Assembly (NCBI RefSeq): GCF_000269865.1
Contig: NZ_AKKV01000024.1
Location: forward strand, 186,001-250,000
DNA: 64,000 nt
Reading direction: 5' to 3'
From: Fictibacillus macauensis ZFHKF-1
Lineage (GTDB): Bacteria; Bacillota; Bacilli; Bacillales; Fictibacillaceae
Part shown: positions 44,116-52,372 of the stretch, piece by piece
How positions within the stretch are numbered: the first letter of the stretch is position 1
Layout of the letters: each line of letters starts with the position of its first letter
Made by a program: the position numbers and the translations under genes
The notes under the pieces: generated by a model
Databases searched by the model: none
Told to the model about the DNA's origin: nothing
Seen by the model: the letters and a program-made list of their open reading frames with translations, nothing else

Positions 44116-46125
44116 TTAGCGTTTAACGCCGTGTTGTAATTGATACATTTGATAATAATACCCTTGATCTTGCATTAATTCTTCATGCGTTCCTTGCTCA
44201 GAAATGATCCCATTTTTCAAAACTAGAATTTGATTCGCTTCTTTAATTGTAGAAAGTCGATGGGCAATAACGAAAGTCGTTCTATTTTTTTGTACGACTC
44301 GCAACGCATGTTGGATGATGCTTTCCGTCTCTGTATCGATATTCGCTGTCGCTTCATCTAAAACAAGAATGGCTGGATTAATAACGAGCGCACGTGCAAA
44401 AGAAAGCAGCTGTCGCTCTCCAGCCGATAACGTACTTCCTTTTTCTAATACTGGTTCATCTAACCCCATTGGCAATGCTTCCACAAAAGCTAAAGCTCCT
44501 ACATCTGCTAAAGCTTGGACAATTTGTTCCCGCGAGATGTCAGGGTTACCTAACGAAACATTGGAAGCAATCGTCCCTGTAAATAAATACGGCTCTTGTA
44601 ATACAATCCCGACTTGTGAACGAACTTGTTGTGCTGACATAGCTCGCATGTCTTGGCCATCAAGAAAAATTTGTCCATCGTACTGCTCATAATATCGCAG
44701 CAACACGTTCAATATGGAACTTTTCCCAGAACCGGTGTGACCAACTAAAGCAATTGTTTCACCTGACTTAGCGTGAAAAGAAAGATTTTTTAACACGGGC
44801 TCCTCTGGTTGGTAACTAAAGTTAACGTTTTGGAAAACAACGTCTCCACGTAAACGAGATGTAGCTGCGCTACCCACTTTTGTTCCTTTTTCATCTAACA
44901 ATGCAAATACACGCTCCGCTGCCGTCAGTGATTGCTCCATGCGTGATAACTGTTCTACCATCCCTGTTATAGGCTCAAAAAGGCGGGTTAAATAGTCTAC
45001 GAATGCATACAACACACCTGCTGAAATGAGCAGTTGATGATTCAACAGATTGCTACCGAAATACCATATTACAGCGACAAACGATAAATTTCGTAATACG
45101 CCAACCAAATTATGCGACGTGAAACTATCTAAATTCAATAATTTCTTTTGATACGTAAAATAAGCTTTATTTTCTTGTTCAAATTGTGCCTGAACCCTTT
45201 TTCCTGCTGTAAACGTACGAATGATAGGTAGCCCTTGAATACTTTCATATATCATTCCATTAATGACACCATACAGCTCTCTAAGCTTACGATTATAGCG
45301 CGAAGCTAGTTTTCGATAAAATCGAATCCATAGCACCATAATGGGAATGAGTATTAAACAAATACATGCTAGTCGGACATCTAAAAGAAATAATGCAATA
45401 AATATACCCACCATATACACAATGCCTGTAAAGAAATGAGCTAATACATTTACAAATAATTCTTTAATCGCTTCTGTATCATTTGTAACCTTTGAGACGA
45501 TCGTTCCTGCTTGCTGGGAGTCAAAAAATGAAACAGGCAATTGCTGTAGACGCTTAAAGACATCTTGGCGCAATTTTTTCACAACAAGATTGGAGGATCG
45601 CAACAATAAGTAGCGTTGTCCATAATGAAACACACCAGCTAACAACAGCAGCACAGCATACAAACTAATCAACGCAATCACACCCGGAACTTCCGGTTGA
45701 TAAAATGCCCAAATTTGTTTATTAGAGAGTGCTATTGCGTTATATTCTGTTTGTTTTTTTCCGTTTTTTATGATTAATTTTCCGTTTTGATAGGATTTTT
45801 CTCCTTTATGTTGTATGGCTCCTTTTACAAAATAATAATCATGTCCGGTTTGAACAATGGATACTTGTTCCCTCTGTTTGCGAGCAGATGAAACGTGGTC
45901 ACCACGAATATATGCCTTTCCACCGTATAATACGGCGTGATTTTCTTTCGGAGAACCTTCATACCACGTTTGTTCTATTCCGAGTATATGACGATCAATG
46001 AGTGCTTTACCGATAAATGGACCGGTTAACTCCGTTCCAACGGCAAGTGCTAATAACAATAGGGCAAGACTAAATGTTTTCTTGTACTGTGCTGCATAGT
46101 GATACAGCCGTTTCATACTATTCAT
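44116..46125 (-). CDS. bmrD: Heterodimeric ABC multidrug exporter subunit BmrD (YheH)
   Basis: 669-residue half-transporter: six membrane helices with a large extracellular insertion of about 90 residues between the first two (about 45-140), as in B. subtilis YheH. ATPase: Walker A GHTGSGKSS, signature LSAGERQLLSFARAL, Walker B ILVLDEATANID with a canonical catalytic Glu. Pairs with BmrC, whose site is degenerate. Start at 46123-46125 (GAGGTTGAT site) overlaps bmrC by 8 bases; the frame extends 35 codons further inside bmrC but without cause. Second gene of the attenuated operon. Confidence 0.92.
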   Translation of the reverse strand: MNSMKRLYHYAAQYKKTFSLALLLLALAVGTELTGPFIGKALIDRHILGIEQTWYEGSPKENHAVLYGGKAYIRGDHVSSARKQREQVSIVQTGHDYYFVKGAIQHKGEKSYQNGKLIIKNGKKQTEYNAIALSNKQIWAFYQPEVPGVIALISLYAVLLLLAGVFHYGQRYLLLRSSNLVVKKLRQDVFKRLQQLPVSFFDSQQAGTIVSKVTNDTEAIKELFVNVLAHFFTGIVYMVGIFIALFLLDVRLACICLILIPIMVLWIRFYRKLASRYNRKLRELYGVINGMIYESIQGLPIIRTFTAGKRVQAQFEQENKAYFTYQKKLLNLDSFTSHNLVGVLRNLSFVAVIWYFGSNLLNHQLLISAGVLYAFVDYLTRLFEPITGMVEQLSRMEQSLTAAERVFALLDEKGTKVGSAATSRLRGDVVFQNVNFSYQPEEPVLKNLSFHAKSGETIALVGHTGSGKSSILNVLLRYYEQYDGQIFLDGQDMRAMSAQQVRSQVGIVLQEPYLFTGTIASNVSLGNPDISREQIVQALADVGALAFVEALPMGLDEPVLEKGSTLSAGERQLLSFARALVINPAILVLDEATANIDTETESIIQHALRVVQKNRTTFVIAHRLSTIKEANQILVLKNGIISEQGTHEELMQDQGYYYQMYQLQHGVKR

Positions 46126-47863
46126 TTTTATCAACCTCAATACTCTGTCGATCATACTGCTCTTTATACCAACCATTTTGTTGTAACAATTGTTCATGTG
46201 TTCCTTGTTCGACAATCGCGCCCTTCTCAAGAACGATAATATGATTTGCGTGCATAACTGCCGACAAGCGATGGGTGGCGATTAAGTTTGTTTTGTCCTT
46301 ACGCTCTTCACGAAGGTGCTTAATAATGGTTGCCTCCGTTTTTGCATCTACTGCAGACAGTGCATCATCTAGAAGGAGAATTTCAGGTTGAACGTATAGT
46401 GCACGTGCAATGGCAATTCGCTGCTTTTGACCTCCTGATAATGATACACCGCGTTCCCCAACCTCCGTTTGCAATCCATGGGAAAATTGCTGTACATCTT
46501 TTTCAAACGCCGCCATCGCTATTACGTGGTGTAATCGTTGTTCATTGATCTCCTCACTACCAAACGTAATATTTTCTTGTAGTGTTTTAGAAAATAACAT
46601 GACTTCCTGCGAAACATAACCAAGCATTTGATGCAAAGCTTCCAATGAGTAGCAATCAATGGAATGACCAGATAGTCTAATTTTTCCCGATTGTAGGGGA
46701 TATTCTCGAAGGATTTGCTTTAGAAACGTTGATTTTCCTGAGCCTGTTTTTCCAACAATACCAAGTGTTTCTCCTTTTTTTAGAACAATTGACACATCCT
46801 TCAATTGTGGTTCTTGCGCGGTTGGATAACGAAACGTTACATGTTCAAAGGAGAGATCTGTAGCCTCCGGTAATGGAAGAGGATGGCGCGGCTCTTCTAC
46901 ATCGACAGGATAGTTCATCGTTTCATTGACACGATCTAACGAAGCATTACCTTGCTGCATAATATTAATGAGTTCTCCTACCGCAAACATTGGCCAAATC
47001 ATAAGACCAAGATACACGTTAAACGTTACAAGCTCACCTAACGTCACTTCGTTATGAAAAACGAGATACGCGCCATAGCCAAGACCAATTACATAGCTAA
47101 AGCCCGCTAATATTTTTATCGTCGGTTCAAACAAAGCATCAATTTTGGCAAGCTTCATATTTTTTTGAAATACGTCTTCTGTTTTTTGGAAAAATGACTG
47201 CATGTCTTCTTGTTCTTTAACATACGCACGGATTACACGAACACCGGTAACACTTTCTAATACTTGATTGTTCATCGCACCAAACGCAGCTTGTGATTCT
47301 GTGAAACGATGATGAACTTTTCCACCATATATGCTCATTGCTACAGCCATTAATGGCAAAGGAATCATGGCAGCAAGCGTAAGCTTCCAACTAATAAGAA
47401 AGCCCATTGTACAAAACAATACAAGCGTATAAATACTTGAATCTACAAGTGTCATGATGCCAAATCCAGCTGTTACAGAAATGCTGCGCAAATCATTCGT
47501 TCCCCTCGCCATTAAATCTCCCGAAGGAAACAGTTCATAAAATCGTGGCGTCATGCTTAACAACTTCTTCATATAACTTGAGCGTAAAGACCGCTCCACT
47601 AAAAAAGCACCACCGAATAATTGATAATTCATCACATACGTTAACAAAAAAATGACGACTAACAATCCACTATAAAACCATAACGTTGTCGTTAATGATT
47701 CCAAACTTAACGTCTCAGAAGCAATCTCATCGACGACATTGCCTAACAATTTTGGCGGAATCACTTCTAAGACACCAAGAAGAATTAACGTTCCGATGGC
47801 TATGCTGTATCTCTTCCATTCTTTTTTAAAGAACCATCGTAAATTGTACAGTACCGAAAACAT
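46118..47863 (-). CDS. bmrC: Heterodimeric ABC multidrug exporter subunit BmrC (YheI)
   Basis: 581-residue half-transporter, six membrane helices (about 15-300) plus ATPase domain: Walker A GKTGSGKST, signature VSLSGGQKQRIAIARAL, Walker B EILLLDDALSAVDAKTE. Asp replaces the catalytic Glu after the Walker B Asp, as expected for the degenerate site of BmrC. BmrCD exports drugs such as Hoechst 33342 and doxorubicin and is induced by ribosome-targeting antibiotics in B. subtilis. Preceded by a leader peptide and terminator (47899-48072) that fit this control. Confidence 0.93.
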   Translation of the reverse strand: MFSVLYNLRWFFKKEWKRYSIAIGTLILLGVLEVIPPKLLGNVVDEIASETLSLESLTTTLWFYSGLLVVIFLLTYVMNYQLFGGAFLVERSLRSSYMKKLLSMTPRFYELFPSGDLMARGTNDLRSISVTAGFGIMTLVDSSIYTLVLFCTMGFLISWKLTLAAMIPLPLMAVAMSIYGGKVHHRFTESQAAFGAMNNQVLESVTGVRVIRAYVKEQEDMQSFFQKTEDVFQKNMKLAKIDALFEPTIKILAGFSYVIGLGYGAYLVFHNEVTLGELVTFNVYLGLMIWPMFAVGELINIMQQGNASLDRVNETMNYPVDVEEPRHPLPLPEATDLSFEHVTFRYPTAQEPQLKDVSIVLKKGETLGIVGKTGSGKSTFLKQILREYPLQSGKIRLSGHSIDCYSLEALHQMLGYVSQEVMLFSKTLQENITFGSEEINEQRLHHVIAMAAFEKDVQQFSHGLQTEVGERGVSLSGGQKQRIAIARALYVQPEILLLDDALSAVDAKTEATIIKHLREERKDKTNLIATHRLSAVMHANHIIVLEKGAIVEQGTHEQLLQQNGWYKEQYDRQSIEVDKNE

Positions 47864-47898
47864 TCTTTAATCCTCTTTTCTCTCTTTTCTACTATGCA

Positions 47899-47931
47899 AA
47901 AAAGCATACCTCCCTTGTTGGAGATATGCTT
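47899..47931 (-). terminator. Attenuator terminator in the bmrCD leader
   Basis: AAGCATATCTCC / GGAGGTATGCTT stem followed by TTTTTTG in the minus direction, between the leader peptide and bmrC. A second hairpin (ACATC-CACAA / TTGTG-GATGT) at 47947-47973 precedes it and could compete in an antitermination fold. Confidence 0.82.
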
Positions 47932-48000
47932 CCATTAACATCTTTCACATCCACAAGCGATTGTGACTGATGTTTTTATACGAACGCAAAAAATGTTGAA

Positions 48001-48072
48001 TTAAAACATGCGATTACGGGACGAACAATCAGTCATAAGTTTGTTGTTTTGTTTCATGATGTACTTGTTCAT
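48001..48072 (-). CDS. BmrB-like leader peptide of the bmrCD operon
   Basis: 23-codon frame starting MNKYIMKQNNKLMTDCSS and ending in RMF, with AAAGGA 9-10 bases upstream and a clear promoter (48113-48142). It precedes two hairpins, the second a terminator. In B. subtilis, bmrB (yheJ) encodes a leader peptide upstream of bmrCD whose translation controls a terminator, so ribosome stalling by antibiotics switches the exporter on. The peptide here is shorter than the 54 codons known there; role inferred from position and structure. Confidence 0.75.
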   Translation of the reverse strand: MNKYIMKQNNKLMTDCSSRNRMF

Positions 48073-48112
48073 CTTCTTATCCGTCCTTTCTTTTTCTAGA
48101 GAATGTAAAATA

Positions 48113-48142
48113 ATCGTACCACTAGTAGAAAGATTTTGTCAA
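48113..48142 (-). promoter_or_regulatory. Promoter of the bmr leader
   Basis: In the minus direction TTGACA (48142-48137), 18 bases, TACGAT (48118-48113), with the leader peptide start 41 bases on. Confidence 0.75.
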
Positions 48143-52126: not shown

Positions 52127-52229
52127 GATGATCATTTTTTCTGAACAATCTCATCACACTAATTGTTAGCATTGCCAAACAAGCCTTTAGTAGTGTCTTT
52201 TTTGACACACTAAAAAGCAATGCTACATT

Positions 52230-52372
52230 CCTTCTCCCATCCAGACTATACTGTCGGCTCTGGAGTTGCACCAGATCCACCGTCTATGCGAATGCACAGC
52301 CGGGTCACGGACTAAGAGGCACTTTGCCTCATCACCGCCGGTTGGGAATTTCACCCGACCCCGAAGACGGCC
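52230..52372 (-). ncRNA. FMN riboswitch (RFN element)
   Basis: In the minus direction the aptamer reads CTTCGGGGTCGGGTGAAATT, CCGGCGGTGATGAGG, AGTCCGTGACCCGGC, GGTGGATCTGGTGCAACTCC and GAGCCGACAGTATAGTCTGG, then ATGGGAGAAGG closing P1. All conserved RFN blocks are present. FMN binding is expected to favour the terminator at 52091-52126 and stop rib transcription. Confidence 0.96.

Follow-up and report, generated by a model that had tools for sequence, protein, structure and literature searches.

The closest described system to the element reported here is the leader of bmrBCD in Bacillus subtilis (Reilman et al. 2014, PMC4191407). To the knowledge of its authors, no multidrug ABC exporter before bmrCD had been shown to be under ribosome-mediated attenuation. 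According to that article, lincomycin, erythromycin and chloramphenicol induce a bmrC reporter, kanamycin and gentamicin do not, and induction by lincomycin requires both translation of the leader and the terminator. In Bacillus cereus, BC0870 is reported to be induced approximately 30-fold by tetracycline, more than 10-fold by chloramphenicol and approximately 3-fold by erythromycin, with no strong induction by kanamycin (PMC5417439). In B. subtilis, the level of bmrCD mRNA also rises when a tRNA maturase is depleted, an effect that may act via mRNA stability (PMC10100781).

Here we analyzed the corresponding locus of Fictibacillus macauensis within a stretch of 64,000 nucleotides (the window), in which all parts of the leader lie on the minus strand. 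The element is probably a compact form of the bmrBCD attenuator. It shares with the B. subtilis leader (PMC4191407) the orthologous exporter genes, a promoter, a leader ORF led by a Shine-Dalgarno sequence, an intrinsic terminator, a pairing between the Shine-Dalgarno region and the leader and, on the present reading, a leader of 23 codons. The two differ: bmrB as annotated in B. subtilis is a GTG frame of 53 codons that overlaps the terminator, and B. subtilis has retained an additional leader ORF, with EGG-stop at its end, which the window lacks. Leader and hairpin sequences also differ, and the candidate antiterminator of the window begins in the last leader codons.

The trp attenuator of Escherichia coli responds to tryptophan shortage at specific codons and not to inhibitors of the ribosome. 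It is alike in that the position of a ribosome on a leader ORF selects alternative hairpins (also described in PMC4191407). The B. subtilis vmlR leader resembles the element in having a uORF within an anti-antiterminator stem, an antiterminator and an intrinsic terminator, and in that the antiterminator is released when a ribosome stalls right at the beginning of the uORF; it differs in its three-codon uORF (MIN) and in controlling an ABCF gene, and we claim no homology between the leaders (PMC9226507). In the toiL uORF of E. coli topAI-yjhQ, a single uORF similarly reports several antibiotic classes through different stall positions, but it controls translation and Rho-dependent termination, with no intrinsic terminator, and serves other genes (PMC12121999).

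Exporter genes and leader parts in the window

The half-transporter genes bmrC (yheI; 46118..47863, minus strand, ATG at 47863) and bmrD (yheH; 44116..46230, minus strand) are adjacent and both match their B. subtilis orthologues, with E values of 3e-227 to the YheI chain 8t1p_C and 1.8e-231 to the YheH chain 8t1p_D of the PDB. The bmrD ORF as listed begins at a TTG inside bmrC (46118-46230) and the PDB match starts only at residue 40; bmrD probably starts from an ATG located at the bmrC stop or overlapping it, and translational coupling between the two genes is possible. Among the matches listed, the closest BmrC outside the same genome is 64% identical, so that the window leader is without a close comparison. 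The genome also carries another BmrCD-like half-transporter pair (G000:C20:363158-366657), 43% and 30% identical to window BmrC. Elsewhere in the window, an FMN riboswitch (52225-52372, minus strand; Rfam RF00050, 105.4 bits) probably belongs to the riboflavin genes downstream of it.

A preliminary description of this DNA had listed a promoter, a 23-codon frame with a ribosome site, a hairpin and a terminator ahead of bmrC, and all of these can be read directly. The sigma-A type promoter (48113..48142; TTGACA-18-TACGAT, 10 of 12 matches) has its TTGACA box at 48142-48137 and an extended -10 box carrying TG, TGGTACGAT, at 48121-48113. The Shine-Dalgarno region, GGACGGATAA (segment 1; 48077..48086, with AAAGGA at 48089-48084), precedes the leader ORF (uORF1; 48001..48072), which runs from ATG to TAA over 23 codons and reads MNKYIMKQNNKLMTDCSSRNRMF. 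Further downstream lie hairpin T1 (segments 3 and 4; 47937..47974, -11.7 kcal), which has no U-run, and the intrinsic terminator T2, GGAAGCATATCTCC..GGGAGGTATGCTTTTTT (47898..47933, -19.1 kcal plus a U-run). The hairpin originally placed at 47973-47947 (ACATC..GATGT) does exist, but in a weaker register (-7.2 versus -11.7 kcal for 47974-47937), and the terminator first called perfect is nearly so, with one G-U pair.

The region 47890-48000 folds with a z-score of -4.37, which none of 200 shuffles equalled. A generic scan found one promoter-like site, compared to a mean of 2.3 in shuffles; the window promoter is by itself not beyond chance, and the evidence is the combination of parts together with their conservation. 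T2 was absent from the list that this generic scan produced on the minus strand; our guess is that its rule counts part of the U-run as stem. A hairpin resembling T2, AAGCATATC..GGTATGCTTTTTT, is found upstream of bmrC in Fictibacillus relatives. We note that a TTG ORF of 10 codons (MHSRKERKED), with a ribosome site within the 3' arm of T2, was set aside as probably incidental.

Conservation of the layout and the B. subtilis reading frame

We compared 176 bmrC loci, the window included, which are related to each other. They derive from sets of 26, 30, 26 new and 12 loci, together with 80 hand-picked from the matches listed and 20 more that were picked; one homologue search matched 269 of 397 genomes, and the hand-picked loci come from the matches listed. 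We left out the other copies and other transporters of the window genome (L002-L008), L009 and L017 (contigs shared with L040 and L039), the duplicates L106, L111 and L130, L178 (the same locus as L126, which was kept), the distant L026-L029, L119 (114 nt upstream only), and L031, L033 and L034 (partial or not orthologous). The Paenibacillus loci L022-L025 were excluded together with further distant loci, though a leader-like ORF and a terminator were seen there.

A single pipeline, which required a Shine-Dalgarno-led ORF of 12-45 codons followed by an intrinsic terminator within 190 nt, identified leader and terminator in 167 of the 176 loci versus 4 of 528 dinucleotide shuffles. Of the 167 leader-bearing loci, 140 also have, ahead of the leader, a promoter that matches at 10/12 positions or more, compared to 0 of 528 shuffles. 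The length of uORF1 is 20-34 codons in 159/167 loci. No leader was returned by the pipeline in nine loci (L018, L037, L038, L089, L107, L132, L161, L164 and L185), some of which have candidates in other lists. At least two terminators follow the leader in 98/167 loci (e.g. L044, -257..-183 relative to bmrC), and thus the first of them (T1) has its own U-run there, whereas T1 of the window has none. For the preliminary description, a small frame not conserved among relatives would have counted against its reading; the presence of such a frame is conserved, and its sequence is not.

The comparison also bears on the reference system. BmrC of the B. subtilis locus (L170) is identical over 574 residues to the YheI chain of the PDB. 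The annotated bmrB of this locus has 53 codons and a GTG start, ends 119 bp before bmrC and carries C at nucleotides 136 and 140, features that agree with those given in PMC4191407. A 23-codon ATG ORF, MPRNLRVYQTVSYWRGKPFVLFS, lies behind GGAAGGAGGG, 16 nt upstream of annotated bmrB and in another frame; relative to bmrC, the two span -297..-225 (23-codon ORF) and -281..-119 (annotated bmrB), and the pairing between Shine-Dalgarno region and leader reaches -20.3 kcal. Within the B. subtilis clade (L170-L180), the ATG and ribosome site of the 23-codon ORF are kept in 11/11 loci and its length is exactly 23 codons in 7/11; the GTG of bmrB is kept in 7/11, and at least 52 codons are open in 5/11. 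Sequence comparison suggests that annotated BmrB (YheJ) is the wrong frame and that the leader is the 23-codon ATG ORF.

The bmrB start mutant in PMC4191407 is reported to have also borne four 5'-UTR changes that removed alternative starts or ribosome sites, and the mutant therefore does not separate the two frames. The earlier statement that the window leader is much shorter than the known bmrB holds only against the annotated 53-codon frame, since on our reading B. subtilis has a 23-codon leader. No resemblance between MNKYIMKQNNKLMTDCSSRNRMF and the annotated 53-residue BmrB frame was seen by eye; likeness to BmrB was not counted as defining, because no more than five of the 11 clade loci carry the annotated frame at full length. 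A wrong BmrB frame could also explain why the authors working on B. cereus observed strong drug induction, yet describe no clear BmrB homologue (PMC5417439). For finding such leaders, the comparison gives a rule based not on peptide similarity but on pairing of the leader with its own Shine-Dalgarno region.

RNA pairings and ribosome position

Pairings were tested in 90 representatives of the 176 loci, 87 of which were used for the test of the T1 3' arm against the T2 5' arm. Pairing between the Shine-Dalgarno region and the 3' portion of the leader (1:2) reaches p<=0.05 in 57/90 representatives (mean z -2.43), and 0 of 5000 random re-pairings between loci matched the mean energy of the own partners. 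This is covariation-like evidence; a base composition common to one genome could inflate the re-pairing result, and the shuffle z-scores control for composition. Where the pairing is -13 kcal or lower (74/90 representatives), the partner begins, at the median, 47 nt past the ATG and ends 8 nt ahead of the stop. Given this geometry, a ribosome at the start of the leader leaves the partner free, and a ribosome at its end covers it. In the window, GGACGGATAA pairs with TTGTTCGTCC (segment 2; 48019..48028, codons 15-18) at -15.4 kcal; 2 of 100 shuffles were as good, and 0 of 100 when the limits were slightly shifted.

The pairing between the leader and the T1 5' arm (2:3) was evaluated in 56 loci, namely 55 representatives with at least two terminators plus the window. 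It reached p<=0.05 in 42/56, and its nucleotides overlap the 1:2 partner in 55/56. The window segments, TGACTGATTGTT (48024..48035, codons 13-17) and AACATCAGTCA (47974-47964), form 11 bp at -12.0 kcal (shuffle p = 0.018); when the test is extended to everything downstream, the window 2:3 pairing is at chance level (p=0.47), whereas 1:2 holds in the wide-region test. Sequence and comparison are what establish the parts, the conserved layout and the 1:2 and 2:3 complementarities of the family. As the antiterminator of the window, 2:3 was discarded: the segments are complementary, yet their pairing was the lowest structure in no state tested. A T1 3' arm:T2 5' arm (4:5) antiterminator, attractive by eye in several relatives, was also rejected, with only 6/87 loci at p<=0.05, a mean z of -0.36 and own partners that were on average worse than swapped ones.

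The preliminary description had proposed folding the leader for mutually exclusive hairpins. This yielded a candidate antiterminator in which a 5' arm reaching from the last leader codons to beyond the stop (47979..48009) pairs with a 3' arm that overlaps both the T1 3' arm and the T2 5' arm (47926..47955). The 29 bp, mostly A-U and G-U, amount to -20.4 kcal, which is marginal with respect to shuffles (z = -1.87, 53 of 1000 as good). Pairing of the T2 5' arm with upstream sequence was only slightly above shuffles in the 90 representatives (0.52 versus 0.47), and in the window it fell short of them (0.30 versus 0.43). Unconstrained folds of the full leader formed T2 in 7/7 ribosome states tried, and the minimum free energy of the full leader thus cannot decide.

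Alternative structures were then forced in the window for 15 ribosome positions and for a state with no ribosome, and their energies compared. Once the T2 5' arm has been made, the antiterminator lies 0.9-2.9 kcal below T1 with a ribosome at codons 2-12, is within 0.3 kcal of T1 at codons 14 and 16, and is sterically blocked at codon 18 or later. With a ribosome on codon 1, T1 has an advantage of 0.8 kcal at this late stage and the antiterminator one of 0.7 just after T1 is made; in every other state, T1 is better just after it is made. With no ribosome, the antiterminator is favoured by 3.1 kcal late, so that an off default in the untranslated state would depend on T1 and 1:2 forming first. 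In this model, early stalls would favour read-through and completed translation would favour termination, the decision being kinetic.

We consider it probable that the window carries a ribosome-controlled transcription attenuator of bmrCD that senses the position of the ribosome and not the sequence of the peptide. Ribosome-mediated attenuation of a BmrC/BmrD-type exporter, the class assigned in the preliminary description, is the best-supported reading, with orthologous genes and a layout found in 167/176 loci. Translation of the leader, stalling, the antiterminator, the off default and the inducing drugs are elements that we infer. An undisturbed ribosome would complete the 23-codon leader and cover, with its last codons, the 5' arm of the antiterminator; T1 and then T2 would form, and transcription would stop before bmrC. 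An inhibitor that holds the ribosome within the first dozen or so codons would leave 48009-47979 free to pair with 47955-47926, which would disrupt T1, tie up the T2 5' arm and allow RNA polymerase to enter bmrCD. The 1:2 pairing may keep the default off when the leader is untranslated. The breadth of drugs that induce the homologous systems fits a sensor of position or rate.

It is also conceivable, though rather unlikely, that the window copy is a decayed attenuator, in which uORF2 (see below) and the U-run of T1 have been lost and T2 only lowers bmrCD expression constitutively. The missing uORF2 and the T1 without a U-run, unlike those of many relatives, and the marginal antiterminator speak for decay. 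The promoter, Shine-Dalgarno region, ORF, 1:2 pairing, T1 stem and a clean T2 are nevertheless all present, and uORF2 is lacking in 24/176 loci, including L041, which is of the same family and has the same compact layout.

A nascent peptide that stalls the drug-bound ribosome at one codon could set the switch in an erm-like manner, and arrest leaders of this kind are known for other resistance genes (tlrB, RYR motif; PMC9226507). The preliminary description had pointed to Cys-Ser-Ser-Arg as a possibly distinctive stall site. We find this explanation unlikely, and we reject Cys-Ser-Ser-Arg as an arrest motif. Window codons 15-18 (Asp-Cys-Ser-Ser) are complementary to the Shine-Dalgarno region, and their residues are thus what RNA pairing demands. 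No motif common to the 167 leaders was seen by eye, and the peptide appears hardly constrained in three of four clades of relatives, the leader pN/pS being 0.92 (15 sequences), 1.11 (7), 1.06 (10) and 0.53 (8); the last value is the one that would suit an arrest peptide. In the window model, moreover, ribosome occupancy of codon 16 favours neither structure and that of codon 18 blocks the antiterminator, so that a stall there would not favour read-through.

Attenuators that respond to a ligand or an RNA-binding protein are common. That the hairpins answer to such a factor here, with the leader ORF incidental, is nonetheless very improbable, given that Rfam returned no match at gathering score in the leader region or in 15 loci (that of the window and 14 relatives), that a Shine-Dalgarno-led ORF, its 3' end set against the pairing segment, is present in 167/176 loci, and that lincomycin induction of the B. 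subtilis homologue is reported to need translation (PMC4191407).

A second leader ORF between T2 and bmrC

Most of the loci (152 of 176) have a further ORF led by a ribosome site and ending in Gly (uORF2) in the stretch from T2 to bmrC, and its length is 18 or 19 codons in 94/152. When a final Gly was not required, the best such ORF still ended in Gly in 148 of the 167 loci having one, versus 12 of 307 shuffled. The final codons are GGC (74), GGG (36), GGT (25) and GGA (17), and all three stops occur. The residues ahead of the Gly are mostly [D/E]-[G/S], with E/D at the first of the two positions in 121/152 loci and G/S at the second in 122/152. The use of all four Gly codons and all stops, together with the preference for E/D and G/S, indicates that selection seems to act on the uORF2 peptide. 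The window is one of the 24 loci without uORF2, and no ORF that combines a ribosome site with Gly as its last residue was found in it.

A broader reading, to which we would give even chances, is that leaders throughout the order carry two ORFs with different jobs. uORF1 would be a sequence-free sensor of ribosome position, whose 3' codons are set by pairing with the Shine-Dalgarno region; the BmrB of B. subtilis would be the wrong frame, its real leader having 23 codons. uORF2 would be selected as a peptide for [D/E]-[G/S]-Gly-stop and would provide a second, peptide-level control of pump translation not previously reported, and the window would be a compact variant that lost it. Among the papers listed in the literature searches, mostly freely accessible texts, we found no description of the frame question, the second leader ORF or the order-wide layout. 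Relative to bmrC, uORF2 lies for example at -110..-50 (L044), -93..-36 (L013) and -98..-17 (L170, B. subtilis), and it might be translationally coupled to bmrC or serve as an additional point of arrest.
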